Positions 4,674 through 64,000 of a DNA stretch of 64,000 nucleotides are shown here, piece by piece. Position numbers and translations under genes: made by a program. The stretch's first letter is position 1; every line of letters begins with the position of its first letter. This DNA is from Chondrosia reniformis (Eukaryota > Porifera > Demospongiae > Chondrillida > Chondrillidae), in contig OX359200.1 of NCBI GenBank assembly GCA_947172415.1, forward strand, positions 622,501-686,500, given 5' to 3'. The notes below the pieces were generated by a model, which searched no databases, had not been told where the DNA came from, and worked only from the letters and a program-made list of their open reading frames with translations.

Positions 4674-4740
4674 TTATGAATAATCTAACACACCACTTTT
4701 CCTACATATTACATCTACTGGCCTACAGGGGACTAAACCG
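4674..4740 (-). repeat. 3' fragment of the hammerhead-bearing short repeat family
   Basis: The sequence from AATAATCTAACACACC to GGGGACTAAACC matches the end of the ~175-bp family described at 15,065-15,242, in the same orientation as the copy at 16,530. The ribozyme half is missing here because the 33-bp minisatellite begins at this point. Confidence 0.6.
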
Positions 4741-4748
4741 ATGTAGTA

Positions 4749-6318: not shown

Positions 6319-7640
6319 ACAACTTAATGAAATGTAATTCACAAAATAGCCTGAGCTCTCCATATCCTAGAGAATGTAAATACTGTACATGAAATACAAT
6401 GATGAAATTAGATGTTTTATAAATGACTAAACTTGAACAAATGAAACTGGTCATGTACTTCTCTCAGCACAACTCAAGTAGAGTTGCCCCAGGGCACACC
6501 ACGAGGAGGTGAAAGTACATCGTGCCCCACCCCACAGCGTTGACACTAACTATTGTGTAACAGAAGCTGTAACTGCGCAGTAATCTGCACTCATGGAGTT
6601 ACTAGCCATGACATAGGAATCGATCGGCGTTAGCCTCACTTTCAGCCTATGCCAAGTCCGACCCTCCCGAACCGCAAACTGCCCCGATGAGAATCAGTGT
6701 GTTGCCACACCTTTAACTCCTCAGGATCGGATGACGTCCTTGAAGTGGGGACTGGCGAAACAACTGCCCAAATCAGGTGTCGACAACCGACTTCAACTTA
6801 CATAGTTACGTGATTACCTCAATCTCCGTGCCGTCAGACCCCAGCCGAAGCCAGAGCTAGTGAGGACCAATCCCAAGCACCAACCCTCCCACTGAGTTCC
6901 TGATCAGATTGCATATCCAACGTGACACCAGGCCGCATTCTCAGCTCGCTGGCGGAGCCGAGGGGAATCCTGGGTCTACTTGTCTAGCGCTCCGAACAGG
7001 ACTACTCGGGATAAGGAAAGACCACCGTCAGGCACAGAAACTTTAGCAATCTCACGCGTCAAGTAAGCCACTGGGGGTAAACTGAGATTTTTCACACCTC
7101 GCCATCTTTTATATGGCTGCATTTAAATTTCCCGCGCAAAATCCTTATTAGGAGATGACGGTCACGTGTCAAGATGACGTCAGCCTAAATTATAGTTTCT
7201 TAGCTACCACTTTCGCAATAGATAGAAAATGGCTGACAAAATGATGCATCATTTGTCGAATATTTCCGAAACTTTTCTTAATCGCGCGCTAACTAGCAGT
7301 TAAACGTTATAAATCTTAAAAGCTTTAAAGCGAAGAAGCAAAGGTTTGTGAATTGTAAATTCAAAATTAAAATTAGTTTACTGGAGTTAGGCAAAAGAGA
7401 CATTTCTGATGGTTCTGATGGATATGTAGCAGTGCTAATCTCTTATAATGGTTTCGGGGAGTTCTATTAGAATGCCAAGTACGATTTTCTGTAGTCACAA
7501 ATCGTTTGTTAACATTTTCCAAAGACAGCTTAAGTTCTTAGATCGAGCGAAGTACACCTTTTTCAACTTGGTTTAGTAAGATAGTGTATTGTATACGTAG
7601 TTCTAAGTGCATGTCTAGTTGATTTAATACTCTATGGCCC
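6313..7640. repeat. Large dispersed repeat, copy 1
   Basis: At least 1.3 kb are nearly identical to 62,587-64,000. The left edge is ATGAACAACTTAATGA in both copies; the right edge is beyond the window for copy 2. The middle (about 6480-7080) is clearly richer in GC than the surroundings. Both copies hold a short ATG frame starting ATGGCTGACA (7229 here) and a further frame with KLGKR-, SDG- and VAVLISYNG-like segments (about 7360-7480). Copy 1 lacks about 75 bp present in copy 2 near 62,650-62,740. I recognise no transposase, integrase or terminal repeat, so the class is open. Confidence 0.8.
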
Positions 7641-14842: not shown

Positions 14843-16062
14843 TTATTGTTTTATCCACACGTGGTTTAAACATTGTCCTGTAGTTAACCTCTTGCTTGAA
14901 TTGACACACAAAGTAGATGAGATAAAGTGCTTACATTCCACAGATAAGGCCATCCAGACCTGAAGAACATAACAGTAAAATATTACAGTGTACCTGTTGC
15001 TAGAGAAACATGGATTCAAAACCATAGTTATAGAGACACTATATACATGCATAGGAGGATTCATATTAGATCAAGAAGAAAATAGAGATTCCCAGGGACA
15101 CTGATGAAGGATGGAATACCCAGATACAGCTGTCTGTCCCAGTGGATAAGAAGAGAAGTAGGAGAAAAAATTGTATCCTCATCCAAAGCTCTCACTAGGT
15201 TTATTTCCCTATAGGCCTTAACATGATGTGTTAGATTATCCAATGTCTATTACATCAGTACCTGTGTTGTGGTATTATATGTCCCTGATAGAATGAGGCT
15301 GCTCAATCTGGTCTTATCATCAGGATCAAACGGTAGCCTTCCTGTAAGTAAGGTATACACAATCACCCCTACCGCCCACACATCCACTGGGTAGCTGTAG
15401 AGGTGCCCTGATATGGCCTCAGGAGACTGGTACTCCAGTGTCCCGCAAGGCCCCCGGAGGACAGGCTCAACTTCAACTGGAAACTGATATGCGAGACCAA
15501 AGTCTCCTAACATAAGAGTGCTATCATAGCTTCTTCTGCAGAGCAGAATGTTTTCGAGTTTGACATCACGATGTACGACCCTATTATAATGCAGATACTG
15601 TAGTGCATGGACAATTTTTGACATCATCTGTACAGCTTGTCGCTCGGAGAAACGCCCGTGCTTCAACAACCAATCAAATAAGTCGCCTCCCTGAGCTAAA
15701 TTCATTATCATATATACGTGACTCCTTGACTCGTGGAGATAATGCAGTTGTATTATGCTTGGGTGGGATAATTGTCGTAAAATATCAATCTCCGTTTTGA
15801 CGCAAGTTTCCGTATAACTTTCCTTATTGATAATTTTCAGGGCGTATACTTTTTCAGTTTCTTTCTTCACTACATGAAGCACCTTGGAAAACGCCCCCTT
15901 TCCAATAATAGTTACAACATCGTACTCTTTACAGATTTCTTTGGAAATAGTAACACGTGTGACCTGTTTATCGCCTCTTGCCTTCAGACCTTCCAGAGAT
16001 TGTTGGCTCTCATTGATGCTGTTCGCTACTGGCACAACTCTATTCGAGACGCAGCTCCCCAT
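14843..16062 (-). CDS. PSKH1-like serine/threonine kinase (CAMK group)
   Basis: Two coding exons, 15262-16062 and 14843-14959, joined in phase 0, encode 305 residues. I take MGSCVSN as the start (16062) because it gives an N-myristoylation signal like that of PSKH1; the frame continues 29 codons further up. Kinase motifs in order: GKGAFSKV (Gly loop), YALKII (Lys), HRDVKLEN (catalytic loop), DFGLAY (Mg binding), CGTLEYQSPEAI (activation segment) and DVWAVGVIVYTLLTG. All catalytic residues are present. The C-terminal lobe ends QCLNHVWIKQ, with no calmodulin-binding tail. Best match by eye is the PSKH1 branch, which acts at the Golgi and in nuclear speckles in mammals; another CAMK relative remains possible. 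Confidence 0.85.
15065..15242 (+). repeat. Hammerhead-bearing short repeat, copy a (in kinase intron)
   Basis: A ~175-bp dispersed repeat. On the plus strand it carries GGGACA, CTGATGA (15101-15107), a short hairpin, GATA (for GAAA), CAGCTGTC (15127-15134) and TGTCCC. This is the order of a type I hammerhead ribozyme with a tiny stem III; GGGACA pairs perfectly with TGTCCC as stem I. The second half ends with TGTTAGATTATC. The one core defect is GATA for GAAA. Confidence 0.75.
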
Positions 16063-16141: not shown

Positions 16142-16510
16142 AATAACAAGCTAAGGTTATCCTTAGCTTGAAATTGATGATTGACTATAGCTTGAAACTG
16201 ATGATAGACTATAGCTTGAAATTGATGATTGACTATAGCTTGAAACTGATGATAGACTATAGCTTGAAATTAATGGTTGCCTAGCTTGAAACTGATGATA
16301 GACTATAGCTTGAAATTAATGGTTGCCTAGCTTGAAACTGATGATAGACTATAGCTTGAAATTAATGGTTGCCTAGCTTGAAATTGATTGACTAGCTTGA
16401 AATTGATAGTTGACTAGCTTGAAATTGATGGTTGACTAGCTTGAAATTAATGATTGACTAGCTTGAAATTGATGATTGACTAGCTTGAAATTGATGATTG
16501 ACTAGCTTGC
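16142..16510. repeat. About 24-bp minisatellite upstream of the kinase
   Basis: Some 15 tandem units of TAGCTTGAAATTGATGATTGAC and variants (some shorter units and some with AATGGTTGCC) begin right upstream of the kinase start region. They probably replace part of its promoter or leader. Confidence 0.95.
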
Positions 16511-16529
16511 AGTTGAAACTGCATGAATC

Positions 16530-16766
16530 ATTAATTATCCTTGAAACCAAAAATAATCTAACACACCATTTTCCTACATGTTATGCCTATATACTCTGCA
16601 ATAAATTAAAAAGCCTATTAGGGGAACTAAACCTGGTGAGAGCTTTGGATGAGGATACAGGGGTCTTCTCTTTCTTCTATTGCTCCACTGAGCCAGACAG
16701 CTGTTTCTGGGAATTCCATCCTTCATTAGTGATCCTGGGAATCTTTAATTTGTCTTTTTCTTGATC
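16530..16766 (-). repeat. Hammerhead-bearing short repeat, copy d
   Basis: Minus-strand copy of the family at 15,065. GAAA and CAGCTGTC are intact (about 16,695-16,712), but CTGATGA has become CTAATGA and stem I is partly mismatched, so it is probably inactive. Confidence 0.75.
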
Positions 16767-16904
16767 CATTGTGAATCCTGTACATGCCAGTGCAGGTCAC
16801 TTTAATAATAACAATATTCACAATTAGAAAAATGACTAATTTACAACTGGAAATCTGATAAATTTATTAATATATTAGAGTCAACCTGTGTCATCTTCAA
16901 ATAA

Positions 16905-19900
16905 TTATAAATGAGTAGTCATGACTATATCTGTGGATCCTTCATCAAAACTGTTAGCAAGACTGTCCTCTAGGGATGAGAGCAGGTTAGGAAGACTGGG
17001 AGAAGATCCCAAATCATCCAAGGAATTGTCCAAAGGAGACACTAAGATATCATCACAACTCCTTGAAAGGTCTTTCCCGATCTTTGGAGTATCCATCGAG
17101 AAGACTTCGCCCTCCAAAGTAGATTCTTCTCTTAGACTATTGCCTTCCTCCATGCCTGGAGGTGTGGAGGGGTTGTTATCTGATTTGGGAGTAGAGAAGG
17201 TGAAATAAGTGTTTGGAGAGGCAGAACTGGGTGAGAGGGGATCATCAATACAGGTCCACTTGATGCCTTCCGGTGATTGGAGAGTAGGACTACCCATCAC
17301 ATCAGCATCAGAGAAGAGATTCTCTGTGCTACCCTCCTCTTTCTGTGTCTCTGGAAGGAGAGGTGATTCGATTTCCAAACGATAATGGTGAGTATTGTCA
17401 GGAATTCTTAAACTGAGCCTCTTGACAGTACTCTTTGGTCTCTTCTCAGGTATGCTGCCCAGTAGCACCTCCATCTTCTTCTTCCTAAATTTGAGCACTA
17501 CAATGGCCAAATTAGCCTTACACCCAAAGGAGAGTGCCGTGTCTCGCAACATTTTGGCAGCACACATTGCAGAGGAGGCAACTATCAATGTATCCCTTAC
17601 ATTGTTCTCCGTGATTACCTTCCAGAAGTGCTCATTGGCAAGCACAATGTAGTGATCCGTAGATTTCAGTGACACTTCGGCTATATCAGGCAGTGGGAAT
17701 AGAAATGGCCACATGTGGTAAGAGCCAATGCCCCTTGATATAGGGTATACCCCATTCAAACGAAAATCCTACAGTTGATATATAGATGTAATTCACTCTG
17801 TTAATCTCTAAAGCATGTTAATATACAACTTTGCAACATATGCAAATAGAATATCATATATCGTAACAGTACTGCAGTTAGGAAGACTGTAATTGAAAAT
17901 AAATGAATATTTTAACAAAACATAGCTAGGTATACGTAAGTGTTACAGCCAAGGGACACAAAAAATTAGCCATTAGAAAATATTTAACTCAATTTAAAAA
18001 TACACAGTGGCTAGAGTACCAGTACCGGTAACAAAACGTATTGCGCTAAAGTGCCGGTACACCGGTACACAAAAAGTGAGCTATTAAAGTGTACACAAAA
18101 GTGGTCAAGCACCGTCAAGAATTATATTATACTTATATAAATATAATATAAATATAACAGTACATCGATAAGCACCAGCTTACAAATTCCGTACAAATAG
18201 CTGTGTTAAAGTAGCCGTAATAAAACAATACATTATAGAACACTTTAGTTATTCCTTTCACTCAGTGAATGGCAAAAGGGAAAGGAAAGAGACTGACAGT
18301 TAGGGGGGTCCAGGTGTCTGCCAACTGTCATCTTATAAGCTTGCCGGTGCTTAAGTCACTTTTTGCTCTAAGCACCGGCAAGCCCCAAACTGACAGCTAG
18401 GAGGGTCCAGGTGTCTGTCAACTGTCCTACGCCCATCTTATAAGCTTGCCGATGCTTAAGTCAATCTTTGCTCTAAGCACTGGCAAGCACTAACATAACA
18501 GTTAAGTGTATTCAGGTGTCTACCAATCGCCCCCAAAGCACCATCCTATGCTATGTGCATACACGATTAATTTGTACCTTATCTACTTTATAATCAGTCA
18601 TCTTGCTACTATTCGTTTTCATTAATGATCATTATTATGATAGACACTGAAGATTAGCAGGCTTACCCACAAATTCGACACTTCTGTCCTAAAGGGATTA
18701 AAACAAAACTGTCTACATCGTCGTTCAAGGTTTTGTTCCCCTATAGGCTTTTTTACAGAATAGGCATAGGATATAGGAAAAGGGTATCTAGATTTTTCAT
18801 CTGTAGCCAGCAAATGTCACATGTATTATACTTCCTACAACCACAAGTGTTGTCTTACTTCAGAGACGGAGCCTCCAAGCTCTGCTACCCTTTCTCTTTC
18901 AATGATATTGGTCTTCAGACAGTGAGGAGGAATAAGAGGTACAGGGTCAGTTTCCCTCTGAAGGAGACCTTCGCAGGCTCCCGTACTAGCAGCGTGCAAC
19001 TCAATGGTACCAGGATCTCGCTTATGTACAATGTGACAGAGAAATACTGATAGGCCACTTCTTGGTGAAACAGCTCCTAATTTTCTGTATTTGAAGAGAG
19101 TGCCTATTCAAGCAATTACGTATTTACAATTATATACATATATACATACAATCTACTCTAAAAAGTAGGTAGATCATGTCTTAGCACAAGATTTACAAAA
19201 ACATCAAGAGGATAAAGACTCCCAGGGTCACTGATGAAGGGTGAATTGCCAGAAACAGCTGTCTGGCCCAATAGAGAAGTGGAGAAAAGGAGGAAAGGAA
19301 GTCCAACTGTATCCTCATCCAAAGCTCTATAGGCTTGAGTCTCATAATTCTCATGAGTTTTCGTCTAATATATTCTCTATGTTTCCTTAGATTCATATAC
19401 TTGATAAACATGTAGAAAGATGGTGATTGAGATTGGTCATAGAGCGTCACATGCCTGTGAAAGGAAAGCATGGATTGCCTGAGGTACTGTAGTCTTTCTA
19501 ATACATCTTCCTGGGATAAAGATCCTCCCTCCTCCAGACCCTCTTGTTGCAGAATGTACTCTTCATCCACAATATCAGCTAGGACAGCTCTGATTGCATC
19601 AGCTGATTCCAGGGACTTCCCCCCATCAATGATAGCAAATGTGCTATCATTGGTGTTGTTTACATTTGGAACAACAACAAATGATGCACTGTTGTGAGGA
19701 GGTTCATTTCCTTGACCTGCGGAAACAAATAAACAAAACAACACCATAAACTAGCTCCTCATCAAATCATATAATGTAATTTGAGGCTAATTAAAGAATA
19801 CACCTCAAGAATTTCCCTATATATGATATTTATTCTAAGGAATTAATAATTTACAGTAGTAATGATATTTGAAAATACTAGTCTAAAATTAACCATATAT

Positions 19901-22900
19901 GGTCACTACATATAATTAATCATACATGGTCACTGCAAATAATTAATCATATATGGTCACTGCATATAATTAATCATACATGGTCACTGCATACAATTAA
20001 CCATATATGGTAGTTGACATTCTGAGTGCAACTCACCAGACAGGTTGCAATAGCCAAAGGTCCAAGCCTCGTGGGAAGGCTGGACCACCTGTTCTGCGTT
20101 AGCAAGCTCCTCCGTTTGATCAAATGATACTATCTCATCCAAAACCAGGTGGTCAATTTGACTATGTATATATAATACATAGGTCTATTAATACACTAAC
20201 CATAGTAACTGTTACCATACAATTATCTGTGTGTGGGTTATGGCTACTATAATATTGTAGCCATAGTAATAGGTACTAAATACTGCTGATCTATGCACAA
20301 TCTAACTTACCATTTTTCAATATGCTACATCTAATTTAGAATAAAAGGCCTATGCATATACCTATGTATAGTAAGACTATTTATTGAAGATTCAATTAAA
20401 AATCAAGTGGTCCCACGTATAACAGTATTTCCATACCCAAGTTCATTGAGCACATTCTTCGGGAGATTGGACACTTCCATGCGGACATTTTCTGATACAT
20501 CCAAGTAATTTAGCTGACTGAGCTAAAGGGATAAACATAAATATTGATTATTTTTGCAATACTGTCACAGTGAAAACATAACTGGTGAACTTACTGGTGA
20601 AGCTAGGATTTCAATTTCATTAAGGGAAAGGTCTAGTTCCTTTAATAACAAAAACAATAAATACATAAACAACAACAACGACATACAATAATAACAGAGA
20701 AGTTGTGAAGTAATATCGTGCTTCTTTGACTGGAATGTCTTCTTCAAAAGCTTACAGTTTTCATATATTAAAGATTAATTAATTTAAATATGACTGCTAA
20801 TTTGAGTCTACTGCTGTTCTAAATGGTTCTGAATTGGCAATATTCACAGTACAGTAAAACCCCTGTAGGCAGTCCAGTGGCATATCTAGGAGATAAGGAA
20901 GGAGAGGGAGTCCTATATGGACAGTGCAGAGCACGTGGATGCCCTATTTTTGGTCTCCCTTATATGGTGGTAGGTTAATCTTAGACAGGGTAGGTCCTAG
21001 ATTGCCACCGCCTATATATCACTCCTTATGAGATTACATACAACCATATATGTATCACAACGTTACAACCTTTTGAAAGGATCATCTTTCGACTTTTAGA
21101 GCATCTAAAGACGCAGTTTTGTTGTCTCTTTTTGGTTGTTAGACACCTGCAGACTAACATCAGTCACTGAAGAAGACCCTCGGGGTCAAAATGTCTGACA
21201 ACCAAGAGAGACAACAAAACTGCATCTTAAGACACTTTAAAAGTCGAAAGAAGACCCTTTTCAAAAGATAAATTTTAATCACGTACATGTCTGATTATAG
21301 ACCACAACTACTTAAAAGAGAAGGCAAAATAAGGATTGCTTTGCGTGTGGCTGAACTAACAGTGAGTTCTGAAAGGTTGGCAATGATTGGTGTTTCCGTT
21401 AGCTCATTATCTGAAAGCAGTAGTTTCTGCAGATTGACACAGCCTCGCAAGGACCCAATTGATGATATCTGGTTGCCAGAGAGACTAAGTGTCTCCAAGT
21501 GAACGAGTCCTTGGAAACAACTATAGGATAGAAGACATTTCTCTTAGACTTGTGTCTCTTGATAAGTCAACAAGTCTTACTTTCCGGGAGATGACAGCAG
21601 GTTGTGACACAAAATTAGAATTTTAAGCTTCTTGAACCTGAAGGAGGAGTAAACAAACAATACAGTGTACATAAGAGTGAAGAGAGAAAGTAGTTTCATT
21701 GAGTGTATAAGGAGGCATTAGTAGTTTGTTCTCTGCACAATGTCCTGTATACCTGACCATATTGACCACAATCTGGTTGCTCCGGACAACAAAAGTAAGT
21801 TTAATCAACCAATCAGTTTTATCAGGTACATAATTACTAATGACAGTCAGATCAGGTAGCCAATCAAAATGTCAGTGGAGAGCACAGGCTTACTCTTCCG
21901 GGCCAATGAATCTACTTACTGATGTACAACTTCAAGCGAATCATTTTTGAGCTTGTTAAATCCGGCATACAATTCCATTATTGTGTTCTCCTCGGCTTGG
22001 GCTACTGGAGGAGGAAGGGCTGACAATTTGTTGTCAGACACATTCAAGACTTCCAGTCTGAAGAGAAAGTAACATTCCATGACTGCAGGACATTTTTATA
22101 GAACATACTCTGATATAGCACATATACTAGACGAAGTCTGTAGTCTCAACCAAACAAGCAGCCATTTTTATCAATGATTGCATAGTGATTTTATTTTACT
22201 GAAGTGAAGCTCATGTTGTTATGTTAAATGTATACGTATACAAGTATGTACATATATATACGTATAGCCCAGGTGCTATTGCAAACAAATGAACCTTAAT
22301 GTTAAACTACTAGTTCACTATCTTTTTTTGTGAACAGATAAACAAACTTTGTTAGTTTGATTATTAAATCTTCTGGCAAGGCTTCTAACTGGTTGCTATG
22401 GAGATCAAGGTCTTCCAGGTTGACATTTCCAATTTCATTGGGAAGTGCTCTTAGTTTATTGTTAGAGACTTTTAAAAGTCTCAACTTCTTCAAATTGCTA
22501 AATAATCTACAAAACCCATTAAGAATACAGCAATTAAATATTATTGAGTAACTACATTAAATTTATCTTTTGAAAGGATCATCTTTCGACTTTTAAAGTG
22601 TCTAAAGTTGAAAGATGATCATTTCAAAAGCTAAGTTTGATGTGGTTAGAAGAAATCCTTATTCTATTAAGTTATGAATCACATATAACACCACCATTCA
22701 CCAATGAATGCAGAACAGACATATAAGTGACAAAGGTCTGATAAGAATACAATTTTCCCAATTCCTTTTCTCCACTAAGCCAAAAAACTGTTTCTGAGAA
22801 TTCCAATCTTCACCAGCAACCATAGACATCTCTGTTTGGCTTTTCCTTTGGATTCTTTGGAATTACATTCTATTTATCATTTACCTCATTGGTTACTTAG

Positions 22901-34734: not shown

Positions 34735-35836
<1,102 letters not shown>

Positions 35837-39400: not shown

Positions 39401-40980
39401 ACAATTCCCTGTTCCTTCATGTGATTCCCCTACTGTTATATGTGTGTCTACACTCATCCCACAAGGTCACAGCACTGACCTGTTCCCGTGGCAGCACACG
39501 CACAGATGTCTCTCCCCATGAGTGCCAAAGGAATGGTCTTGGCTTGGATGGGGGTGGGAGAAACAAACCCCACCTCTGTCACGCCCTACAACAGGTATGA
39601 AGAGCTAGCTTACCTGGGGAGGCACAAATCAACTACACTTGTGGTCTCTATTATCTACCTTAAGTACAGGTCTTGATAAGTTCATATCTGTGAATGCCAC
39701 ACCAAACTCTACTTCAGGAACGTTATCAAAGAAGCTGGCAGCCTGTGTTATAAAAGCATTGAAATGATCAGTGTTCAGAACATAATATTTATTAAAGTAA
39801 CACACATGGAAGAATTCACAAAAGATTAAGAAAAAGATTCCCAGGGTCACTGATGAAGGGTGGAATTTCCTGAAACAGCTGACTGACCCAATGGAGCAAA
39901 GGAAGAAAGAGAAAACTCCTGTATCTTCATCCCAAGTGCTCACCAGGTTTAGTTTCCTATAGGCTTTTAATTTATTACAGAGTATGCATAGCATATAGTA
40001 GTTTATTCATGTAAACAAGCACAAGCTAAACTGGACCCACAAGTCATTATAGTAATGTGTCTTTTAAGTATACTATATATTGAAATTGGTCAGTGCAGCC
40101 TATATACATATTATAATTAAAATTGATAGTATAAACATAACAGTTATCGACTATCCCAGTGAATGAATGGGTCATACCTCTGAGGTACCCTCCTCTTCTT
40201 CTTCCTCCTCCTCTTCAGTAGAAGAGTCCAAATCTTCTTCCTTCTCACCACCTTCATCACCAATGTCATCTGCTTGATCTGAACAATCTGCCCCCTGCTT
40301 ATTCTCTGTTGCGTTAGCACTCTTCCTGAGCTAGTAATTCAGCAGACATCTCAATCACAACTAAATTAACTCACATCTATGTCTGCAAAGTACCTTTCTC
40401 TTTCGATTTTCCCTCATTTTTGCTATTTTGTACTCCAAAGACAGTTTATTCACTTGCCCCTGTAAGGTACATGCAAACATTGGTAGAGCACACACCTCAA
40501 TAGAGCAATAGTAGAGTTACTTCGCCTCTCGTTGCTCTGAGCACTTCATCAAAGTGCTGGCTGGTCGAGGATTCCATATCCATGGCCACACCATCAAATG
40601 AGAAGGAGAATGATTTGTTTAAGGATGTCTTTCTTTGACTTCCTTTGACTTTTGACTTCTAGATGTGAGCAATGGAATAGAGAGACAAATTGATGTGATC
40701 CATTTACCCAAAGTAGTGCAGTAAAATACAAAACTTTGTACTAAAACAAAATGTACAAAATTGATAATTGAAGCTACAATATAGCAATATCCATTCCAGA
40801 TCACAGACATTGATGAGTCAAATTACTGCGCTTGCAGGTGTGAGCCGGTGTTCAGTTACACGTGACAACGATAAATGAACACACCTTTTTGCTTGATAGT
40901 ATCTCGTCTTCCGAATCCTCTGATTCCTCAACATATTGGAAAGATTCATCATCATCTATCGTTCCCAAGAGGTCGGCCAT
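36493..40980 (-). CDS. DDX27: DDX27: DEAD-box RNA helicase of ribosome biogenesis
   Basis: Eighteen exons from ATG 40980 to TGA 36493 encode 696 residues; junction phases all agree. The N-terminus is acidic (Glu-run near residue 160). Then come the Q motif region [24 protein letters not shown] (Walker A), [25 protein letters not shown] (DEAD box variant DEAD), [29 protein letters not shown] and [14 protein letters not shown] Lys/Glu-rich tail has [14 protein letters not shown]27 works in the nucleolus with the PeBoW complex in 47S rRNA processing. The C-terminus is somewhat shorter than in vertebrates. A possible 48-nt in-frame intron lies at 38039-38086. It starts 100 bp from the divergent gene at 41,081. 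Confidence 0.95.
39828..39990 (+). repeat. Hammerhead-bearing short repeat, copy c (DDX27 intron)
   Basis: The plus strand has GGGTCA (39844-39849), CTGATGA (39850-39856), a 3-bp stem II (AGG/CCT), GAAA (39872-39875), CAGCTG and TGACCC (39884-39889). Stem I pairs perfectly, and compared with copy a (GGGACA/TGTCCC) both strands changed together. The cleavage triplet is GAC for GTC, so this copy is probably inactive. Confidence 0.75.
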
Positions 40981-46760: not shown

Positions 46761-47565
46761 TTTCCCTACATAATCTTTTTATTCTGCCTCTCAGGAGAAA
46801 ACTTATTCAAGAAAAAATGAAGTTGCCGAATTGGAGAAGCTGAAGAACTGAACCACTTTTAGAGAAAGCTGCTTAAACTATAAACACATATGTACATCAG
46901 CCTATGTAATTTATATGCAAAGGAACTGTATACCTATACAGTACATGTACAGAATATATGTAGCATGTGTTGAAGTATATGTATACATATAAATAAGTGA
47001 ATCACTTCAAAATAATAATAATATTATTATTATGCTGGCCAGCGACCAAGTCTTACATTGGTTAGGAGAGTATTTAAATGGAAATCAGTGGATTGCCTTC
47101 CAGTCATACAAAGAGGGAAAAAGAATCACAGACACGTACAGCTGTTTCACCCTCCTAGGCTGGTGTTGTGAAGTGTGCTGCCCCCTACTTCCTGCATGCC
47201 CTAATTCCATGTTTGTGTTGGGGTGAGAAAGTATATATATATATATACAAACCTACCTGCCATCTATGTTTGCACAAGGGTAAGCCAGTAGTAGTATGTA
47301 TAAACATAGATGGATGGCGGGCAAGTGAGGGATAGGTTTGGTAGCTAGGTGTGAAAATGTAGTAGATTGTTAATCCATGTGGTCTTTGTTGTAAATATTG
47401 CTTTGGGTCATTCCATCTAGCCATAAATGAACTAGCAGACACTGCTTAAACAAGTCTATAGGATCACTATGTAGCTGTCATCTAAACTATACTGAAAATA
47501 ATGTAACAATGTAGTAATCTGCTAGCTATTTATGAGCAGTCAGTCATTCGAATCATTGAAAATGC
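46761..47565. other. Intergenic, one imperfect inverted repeat
   Basis: No supported gene. At 47,247-47,342 AAACCTACCTGCCATCTATG faces an imperfect inverse copy, a likely MITE relic. An ATT/AAT run is near 47,015. Confidence 0.5.
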
Positions 47566-48078
47566 AAATCAATGTGACTTGTAATGACACCTTGCAGCTA
47601 CTATAGACCTCCTGGTGCTTAATCCACTTTTTGGCTTAAGAACCGGCAAGCCTTGTCCTATTGGAAAATGCAATCAAGGTGACTTGAAATGACACCTTGT
47701 AGCTCTCAAAAGCCTCCTGGTGCTTAACCCACTTTTTGGCTTTAGCACCGACAAGCCTTGTACTGTTGGAAAATGCAATCGAGGTGATTCAAAATGACAC
47801 CCTGTAGCTCCTATATGCCTCCTGGTGCTTAACCCACATTTTGGCTTAAGCACCGGCAAGCCTTGTACTATTAGAAAATGCAATCGAGGTGACTTGATAT
47901 GAAACCCTGCAGCTCCTATATGCTTCCTGGTGCATAATCTACTTTTTGGCTTTAGCACCAGCAAGCCTTATACTATTGGAAAATGCAATCAAGGTGACTT
48001 GAAATGACACCCTGTAGTTCCTATATGCCTCCTGGTGCTTAACCCACTTTTTGGCTTAAGCACCGGCAAGCCTTGTAC
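47566..48078. repeat. About 105-bp tandem repeat with hairpin, five units
   Basis: Each unit has GGTGCTTAACCCACTTTTTG, then GGCTTAAGCACCGGCAAGCC, so a GGTGCTTA/TAAGCACC hairpin is present in every unit. Units are separated by AAAATGCAATCAAGGTGACT and related sequence. The hairpin matches the one at 18.3 kb. Confidence 0.9.
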
Positions 48079-48327
48079 TTATACATATCTGTGAGTGCCT
48101 ACACCAAGTTTAAGCTTCATTCCATTTGATGGAGTTACATTATGATATACAAAATTTAAGCTTTCATATCTCTCCATTTGTAGAGTTTCAATACATAAAT
48201 TTTGCACAGAAAGTTAATATAATGAGGTTTGAAATGTTGATGCATAGAAATTAAATTCATAAGCTTTAGTGTAAGCTACTACAGAAATGTTAAGTCATTC
48301 TCACAATGTGAAAAGGTGTGTGTATTG

Positions 48328-62586: not shown

Positions 62587-64000
62587 AATGAACAACTTAA
62601 TGAAAGCAATCTGTAATTCACAAAATAGCCTGAGCTCTCCATATATCCTACAGAATAATAATAATAATAATGATTATTAGAGTGACAATCAGAAAACTGA
62701 CCAGCCAAAATTGGCTTATTTAGCTAAAATGTAAATACTGTACATGAAATATAATGATGAAATTCATCATCAGTTTTATAAGTGACTTAACTTGAACAAA
62801 TAGATCTTGAAACTGGTCATGTACTTCTCTCAGCACAACTCAAGTAGAGTTGCCCCAGGGCACACCACGAGGAGGTGAAAGTACATCGTGCCCCACCCCA
62901 CAGCGTTGACACTAACTATTGTGTAACAGAAGCTGTAACTGCGCAGTAATCTGCACTCATGGAGTTACTAGCCATGACATAGGAATCGATCAGCGTTAGC
63001 CTCACTTTCAGCCTATGCCAAGTCCGACCCTCCCGAACCGCAAACTGCCCCGATGAGAATCAGTGTGTTGCCACACCTTTAACTCCTCAGGATCGGATGA
63101 CGTCCTTGAAGTGGGGACTGGCGAAACAACTGCCCAAATCAGGTGTCGACAACCGACTTCAACTTACATAGTTACGCGATTACCTCAATCTCCGTGCCGT
63201 CAGACCCCAGCCGAAGCCAGAGCTAGTGAGGACCAATCCCAAGCACCAACCCTCCCACTGAGTTCCTGATCAAATTGCATATCCAACATGACAACAGGCC
63301 GCATTCTCAGCTCGCTGGCGGAGCCGAGGGGAATCCTGGGTCTACTTGTCTAGCGCTCCGAACAAGACTACTCGGGATAAGGAAAGACCACCGTCAGGCA
63401 CAGAAACTTTAGCAATCTCACGCGTCAAATAAGCCACTGGGGGTAAACTGAGATTTTTCACACCTCGCCATCTTTTATATGGCCGCATTCCATTTTTCCC
63501 GCGCAAAATCCTTATTAGGAAATGATGGTCACGTGTTAAGATGACGTCAGCCTAAATTATAGTTTCTTCGCTCCGACTTTCGCAATAGATACAAAATGGC
63601 TGACATAGCGATGCATCATCTGTCGAATATCTCCGCAGCTTTTCTTAATTGCGCGCTAGCCAGCAGTTAAACGTTATAAATCTAAAAAGCTTTAAAGCGA
63701 AGAAGCAAAGGTTTGTGATTTGTAAATTCAAAATTAGAATTAGTTTACCGAAGTTAGGCAAAAGAGGCATTTCTGATGGGTATGATGGATATGTAGCAGT
63801 GCTAATCTCTTATAATGGTATCGGGGAGTTCTATAAGATTGCCAAGCACGATTTTCTGTAGTCACAAATCGTTTGTTTACATTTTACAAAGAGCTTAAGT
63901 TTTTAGATCGAGCGAAGTAACACCTTTTTCAACTTGTTTTTTTTTTAAGATAGTGTATTGTATGCGTAGTTCTAAGTACATGTCTAGTTGATTTAATACT
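62587..64000. repeat. Large dispersed repeat, copy 2 (cut by window edge)
   Basis: Nearly identical to 6313-7640, with an additional ~75 bp near 62,650-62,740 that includes an AAT run. In this copy the second frame (63,649-63,861) stays open for 70 codons, ending VAVLISYNGIGEFYKIAK and six further residues, whereas copy 1 has a stop after EFY. The right end lies outside the window. Confidence 0.8.

Follow-up and report, generated by a model that had tools for sequence, protein, structure and literature searches.

What is the short repeat that recurs in this part of the Chondrosia reniformis genome, and has the hammerhead-like motif that it carries cut RNA in the animal? The window, the whole stretch of 64,000 nucleotides analysed here, corresponds to C12:622,501-686,500 in a searched genome of 117,379,552 bases on 15 contigs. 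A first-pass annotation of the window had described five copies of a repeat of about 175 bp, with the parts of a hammerhead core in a shared order. All five copies are present, at the positions and on the strands described (Table 1). The part they share is longer than had been thought, about 226 nt instead of 175 bp (element positions C1–C226), and a few genomic copies reach about 55 nt further 5′. The core order holds whole in the 19.2-kb copy (copy 3) and is broken in the other four, leaving one intact core among the five copies, the only one in the window. From 19,225 to 19,269 copy 3 reads GGGTCA / CTGATGA / AGGGTGAATTGCCA / GAAA / CAGCTGTC / TGGCCC, with every core base in place as described, and the cut predicted after 19,263 agrees with the sequence; TGGCCC is then the start of the predicted 3′ cleavage product, at element position C86. 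Stem II is better paired in copy 5 (AGGG/TCCT).

Table 1 Copies of the SINE-like repeat in the window, parts of its intact hammerhead, and tandem hammerheads elsewhere in the genome
Feature	Position	Strand	Basis
Copy 3, SINE-like repeat, element C6-224	19187..19439	+	nhmmer with family consensus, E 1.4e-23
Copy 3 stem I, 5′ strand GGGTCA	19225..19230	+	sequence; partner 19264-19269
Copy 3 core: CTGATGA, stem-loop II AGGGTGAATTGCCA, GAAA, stem III CAGCTG, TC	19231..19263	+	sequence
Copy 3 stem I, 3′ strand TGGCCC	19264..19269	+	sequence; insertion ends concentrate at C86
Copy 1; core 15101-15134 broken, GATA replacing GAAA	15056..15223	+	nhmmer and sequence
Copy 2; core 16696-16729 broken, CTAATGA	16551..16779	-	nhmmer and sequence
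Copy 4, diverged; core 22784-22816 broken, CTGGTGA, without GTC	22739..22844	-	nhmmer and sequence
Copy 5; core 39850-39883 broken, GAC replacing GTC	39810..40007	+	nhmmer and sequence
5′-truncated 3′ piece, C149-225	4676..4743	-	nhmmer, E 3.6e-5
5′-truncated 3′ piece, C145-224, weak	20294..20376	-	nhmmer, E 3.7e-4
Retrozyme-like canonical type I hammerheads, tandem 350-359 bp	C3:1599837-1600235, C6:3921765-3922163, C6:4724360-4724997, C4:3837454-3838563		

Matches to CTGATGA...GAAA at 16,198-16,361 were rejected as ribozymes; they are part of a 22/46-bp tandem array (window 16164-16516) whose units, with CTGATGA...GAAA, imitate the hammerhead pattern four times. A 184-aa frame on the minus strand (window 19193-19747) runs antisense through the 19.2-kb copy, and the repeat may provide the C-terminal coding end or the 3′ UTR of a host gene there. 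Elsewhere in the window, a 105-bp tandem repeat with a hairpin-like inverted repeat in its unit forms two arrays (18329-18521 and 47558-48079), 29 kb apart; a repeat pair (6442-7427 and 62808-63794), 56 kb apart, shows 100% and 92% identity over two 300-base samples; and a polyubiquitin frame of four units spans 34919-35836, with 98% inter-unit matches according to Tandem Repeats Finder.

As a genome query, the 19.2-kb copy returned 2,020 first-look candidates, of which 40 were scored, all of them matching; a query made of the 3′ half from another copy returned 2,371, of which 40 were again scored. Alignments reveal a common layout: first a ribozyme block, next a purine-rich spacer whose length varies, and last a 3′ half that is conserved and terminates in TTAGATTATTCATG. 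Among 60 copies fetched to the 3′ side, 51 end at C221–226, and many copies are 5′-truncated. Short, non-coding and dispersed, with a common 3′ end and variable 5′ truncation, the repeat has the features by which SINEs are recognised. Target-site duplications are in modest excess, with 11 of the 60 copies scoring at least 7 (3.2 in mispaired flanks) and 6 of the 60 at least 8 (1.5 in mispaired flanks); one copy that starts at C87, L092, has a 16-bp duplication on both sides. The first-pass annotation had read the family as retrozyme-like or as a ribozyme-tailed SINE, and what stands of this is a SINE with a ribozyme. The retrozyme-like reading does not fit this family, whose copies stand alone, mostly finish at a single 3′ point and lack ribozymes at their borders. 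The ribozyme spans C46–C91, in the 5′ part of the element and not in its tail.

By eye, C86–C96 (TGGCCCAGTGG) looks like the A box of a tRNA promoter and C153–163 (GGTTTAGTTCC) like its B box, making an internal promoter conceivable. Two longer copies have a TATA-like TATATAAG 28 nt upstream of C1, a placement that suggests a transcription start at C1–C6. A Penelope-like open reading frame (RT plus GIY-YIG) is absent from the repeat, which at 226 nt is too short for one. At least 150 GIY-YIG domain matches lie above the cut-off genome-wide (150 of 150 scored), many in frames of 400-1000 aa, and this abundance hints at Penelope-like elements in the genome; the domain is also present in 12 of 14 control genomes. 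LINE-type RT-like frames, recognised by reading alone, adjoin some ribozyme loci. Five copies on C2 (L151–L155) have near-identical flanks and one 5′ junction, and thus appear to derive from an insertion later amplified together with its surroundings.

The family consensus contains the whole invariant core (CUGANGA...GAAA...NUH), a 6-bp stem I and a 3-bp stem II (GGG/CCC) above an A.A mismatch, confirming that stem II is weak, as had been noted. This A.A occupies the base of the stem in 39 of 41 scorable copies; a few copies (L062, L086) have A-U instead. Stem III, of 2-3 bp, is formed by the palindrome ACAGCUGU, which is identical in the hammerheads of this genome that reach the Rfam gathering score. 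The invariant core is also complete in 18 of 46 unselected copies. Genome-wide, the pattern CTGANGA-N5-25-GAAACAGCTGTC occurs 1,081 times and its reversed counterpart 0 times, so that the hammerhead pattern exceeds chance; 242 of these occurrences are exact canonical cores.

Pairing of the stems points the same way as the core. For stem I, examined in 95 copies, 493 of 549 cells are paired, compared with 86-264 of 548 when the partner is slid. For stems I and II together, 143 of 160 cells pair in 16 sequences from three families, hand-picked for intact cores and counted after a MAFFT gap had been moved into loop II, against 28/112 to 73/160 with the partner slid by 1-3; this family alone contributes 66 of 80 cells to that set, against 3/56 to 45/80. 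Both-sided changes occur at 9 of the 10 stem I and II pairs across the three families, representing few independent events. In folding, the consensus core shows the same topology as two genuine hammerheads, but for the 19.2-kb copy and L062 the structure of minimum energy is a different one.

Other observations count against a hammerhead. Core conservation above the repeat background, which the first-pass annotation had expected of a real ribozyme, is not seen: the values are 0.895 and 0.877 in 46 copies not chosen by their core, a comparison with no power to discriminate among dead copies. Within the family (46 unselected, 95 copies in all), covariation at stem I does not rise above chance except at pair 49-88, where the sole two-sided change (P about 0.05) is that of window copy 1, whose stem I, GGGACA/TGTCCC, is changed on both sides with pairing kept. 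A core without extra conservation and missing covariation are both expected of dead copies of a repeat. The Rfam hammerhead is found neither in the window, at the gathering score or at E 10, nor in nine family loci including the 19.2-kb copy (E to 5), nor in ten short copies (E to 10). For the A.A mismatch there is a precedent in the axolotl HHR_Amex2, described with U.U at the foot of its stem II (PMC7229834). Weak stems III acting as dimers are likewise described for this hammerhead class (PMC7761336, PMC7229834), and the 8-nt palindrome ACAGCUGU would make such dimer action through stem III possible. As a reading, the hammerhead identity proposed in the first-pass annotation holds up, on the consensus core, the pairing stems, the core and stem III in common with Rfam-grade hammerheads and the insertion ends at the cut site described below. 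Judged by sequence, the present copies are mostly decayed and the hammerhead of the element is degenerate.

In a whole-genome search with RF00163, 73 matches were scored and 51 of them reached the gathering score, the best with 43.1 bits, all at other places; none of the 19 family copies tested gave a match. In 14 control genomes, the same model found matches below the cut-off in 11 and above it in 0. The 30 Rfam-grade matches that were examined all have CTGANGA, a 4-bp stem II and an identical GAAACAGCTGTC. They have the CTGATGA core and GAAACAGCTGTC in common with the window family; stems I and II differ yet pair. Part of these hammerheads stand in tandem, 350-359 bp apart, as type I hammerheads in retrozyme-like units; C4 has a run of four, and some others form head-to-head pairs. 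Outside the ribozyme, a blastn comparison of one such unit with the repeat consensus found only words of 7-8 bases in common. The retrozyme-like family is an element separate from the SINE-like family of the window.

If the hammerhead of the SINE-like element was ever active, its cut between C85 and C86 could have left a mark on where insertions begin. We collected copies solely by sequence downstream of the ribozyme. Set 1 comprises all 40 scored matches to a 3′ half of 112 bases, among them the copy from which that query was taken; sets 2 and 3 comprise the first 68 of 394 exact matches to a 26-mer (C125–150), in list order, minus 8 already collected, giving 60 copies, 40 of which were read as 93-base junctions only. 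Removal of flank duplicates (L152–L155, L160 and L185) left 94 of 100 copies as independent. Ends were called by ungapped extension, because gap-friendly alignment over-extended the 5′ ends, and then by a posterior model; the two methods disagree on L172 (C86 versus C71).

Several unrelated flanks pass directly into TG(G/A/T)... at C86, the first base of the predicted 3′ cleavage product. By the posterior model, 48 starts fall within C50–112, with 12 at C86, 3 at C87, 12 at C88–C93 and 9 in all of C60–85. Uniform truncation simulated 600 times from 15 donor copies was called at C86 in 15 cases (2.5%), and the binomial probability of at least 12 of 48 is 1.8e-9. Without three doubtful copies, namely L103 (a poor match), L121 (with bases deleted inside the element) and L147 (next to a 25-bp array and stopping at C199), the excess is 9 of 45 (P 1.5e-6). 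There is also a shoulder, with starts raised at C87–C93 (15 of 48). In the 60 copies of sets 1 and 2, 15 start at C1–6, 20 at C7–85, 10 at C86–87 and 15 beyond C87, C1–C6 thus forming a second cluster of 5′ ends. The six set 1 copies that start at C86–87, L103 and L121 aside, all extend to C221–226; set 2 has two such starters, L131 with its 3′ end at C226 and L147 with its at C199. The 25-bp array adjoining the short copy L147 (C2:756964-757402) has a unit that contains TTGGCCCAGTGGAGAAG, the bases just past the ribozyme cut.

Independently, we counted starts genome-wide with patterns that demand an exact beginning of the element immediately preceded by four mismatched bases; they matched 29 times for C86, 3 times for C82, 2 for C78 and 9 for C90. 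Among the 29, 7 lie in one 25-bp array and 1 reflects a single-base deletion, leaving 21 after cleaning. The C90 pattern has the same length as that for C86; those for C82 and C78 are 4 and 8 bases longer, for which we estimate a loss of perhaps a third to a half of the matches at about 90% identity, not a sevenfold one.

The copies that start at C86 differ from one another immediately downstream of the boundary. The 12 begin with TGACCC (3), TGACCT, TGTCCC, TGGACC (2), TGGTCC, TGGCTC, TGGCAT and TGGCCC (2). With at least five types at C88–91, they do not descend from one master. TGGCCC itself begins 2 of the 12, compared with 20 of 46 long copies; the 21 cleaned pattern matches are all TGGCCC by construction of the pattern. 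C88 is A in 4 of the 12 and in 4 of the 46 long copies, and TGGACC is found in 2 of the 12 and in 0 of the 46. TGACCC would form a fully Watson–Crick stem I with GGGTCA, and its enrichment can be read in two ways, as easier cutting of such RNAs or as the trace of a few short source copies.

The second of these readings leads to an account in which one or a few short SINE sources starting at C86 made their own progeny, the peak being the 5′ ends of these masters. Cutting by the ribozyme would then have been limited to one or a few events, or the hammerhead would simply have joined the long form at its upstream side. Short copies are frequent, 10 of 60 starting at C86–87, the biases at C88 and towards TGGACC would follow from shared ancestry, and the A-box-like TGGCCCAGTGG at C86–C96 together with the B-box-like GGTTTAGTTCC at C153 makes an internal promoter conceivable for such sources. 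Pol III initiates upstream of the A box, however, and a start would then be expected at about C68-78, where starts are few. The diversity at C88–91, the 21 genomic C86 starts with unaltered TGGCCC and a boundary that coincides exactly with the scissile bond of the ribozyme also weigh against short masters, an account that we consider unlikely.

The C86 peak could also be the work of reverse-transcriptase arrest at a structured site, in a repeat that descends from a hammerhead element but whose ribozyme was already inactive when the copies spread. Much about the copies would suit a fossil, including the A.A mismatch in stem II, the silence of Rfam on the window and on 19 copies, the lack of clear covariation, an intact core in 18 of 46 unselected copies and the shoulder of starts at C87–93. 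A hairpin, however, should stop the enzyme at the 3′ foot of stem I (C91-92) or give scattered ends, whereas the observed starts peak most sharply at the scissile bond; we give this account little credence. That the repeat is itself a retrozyme, producing circular RNAs by ribozyme cleavage of tandem transcripts, seems very improbable indeed. The genome does have a retrozyme-like family, built of 350-355-bp tandem units, whose core and stem III are those of the repeat, and at one locus two copies of the repeat lie 191 bp apart, but this pair looks nested, the first copy stopping at C181. Among the 60 copies fully fetched, moreover, 51 end at C221–226 and no permuted or ribozyme-bounded unit was seen.

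The most economical reading of the repeat is a SINE-like element with a degenerate type I hammerhead whose cut RNAs were probably retrotransposed; a few short source copies may have contributed. Transcription of the element would start near C1, and the ribozyme would cut between C85 and C86, alone or as a dimer through its palindromic stem III. Both the uncut RNAs and the 5′-OH 3′ products would undergo reverse transcription starting at the 3′ end they share, and the enzyme of a partner element would insert them; copies of the cut RNAs would lack the ribozyme. RNAs with 5′-OH ends would be expected to leave the pattern observed, an abrupt edge at the scissile bond and a scarcity of ends immediately before it. 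We lean, if with less assurance, towards the fuller proposal that a hammerhead in a SINE-like element cuts RNA in the animal and that the cut RNAs are themselves retrotransposed, with insertions that begin at the scissile bond and lack the ribozyme.

In R2 and L1Tc elements, self-cleavage by an HDV-like ribozyme defines where the RNA that is retrotransposed begins. There the ribozyme frees the element from an upstream transcript, whereas the sponge repeat has a different ribozyme and a predicted internal cut that would remove the ribozyme itself. Close by description are the schistosome elements SMalpha and Sjalpha, short SINE-like repeats with a type I hammerhead (PMC8490949, which cites a 1998 paper by Ferbeyre, whose title reports that active hammerheads are encoded, and a 2000 paper by Laha); they come from a different phylum, and their relative, the W element, is described as 335 bp long and satellite-like; insertion ends at the cut, as in the sponge repeat, are not part of the description of SMalpha and Sjalpha consulted in that source. 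Metazoan non-LTR retrozymes also carry a type I hammerhead with a short stem III, given as two pairs and a tetraloop in invertebrates, and the axolotl motifs are reported to cleave weakly as monomers and better as dimers (PMC7229834). The sponge repeat resembles them in ribozyme type and short stem III, but it is solitary, whereas retrozymes are ribozyme-bearing units, about 150-450 bp long, that lie in tandem and give rise to circRNAs. Penelope-like elements are described as retroelements with a minimal type I hammerhead of unknown role (PMC7761336) and encode RT and GIY-YIG, which the 226-nt sponge repeat does not. For the lizard Penelope-like element PAc, cleavage is reported as dispensable for insertion in vitro, and no RNA-seq reads are reported to begin or end at the cut (PMC11167929), whereas insertions of the sponge repeat do begin at the predicted cut.

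A search of the open-licence PMC literature found neither a sponge hammerhead nor an insertion footprint at a hammerhead cut, and the sponge repeat may be the first sponge case. SINE-like hammerhead elements are already known in schistosomes; the new result is the cut-site insertion footprint. Insertion 5′ ends at the scissile bond would directly evidence cut RNA entering retrotransposition, and mapping insertion ends against predicted ribozyme cuts would be a cheap test for any genome. If the proposal is true, the ribozyme is a switch that sets whether progeny are full-length or ribozyme-free, and the genome of this sponge is a record of past ribozyme activity, readable as a map of insertion ends.
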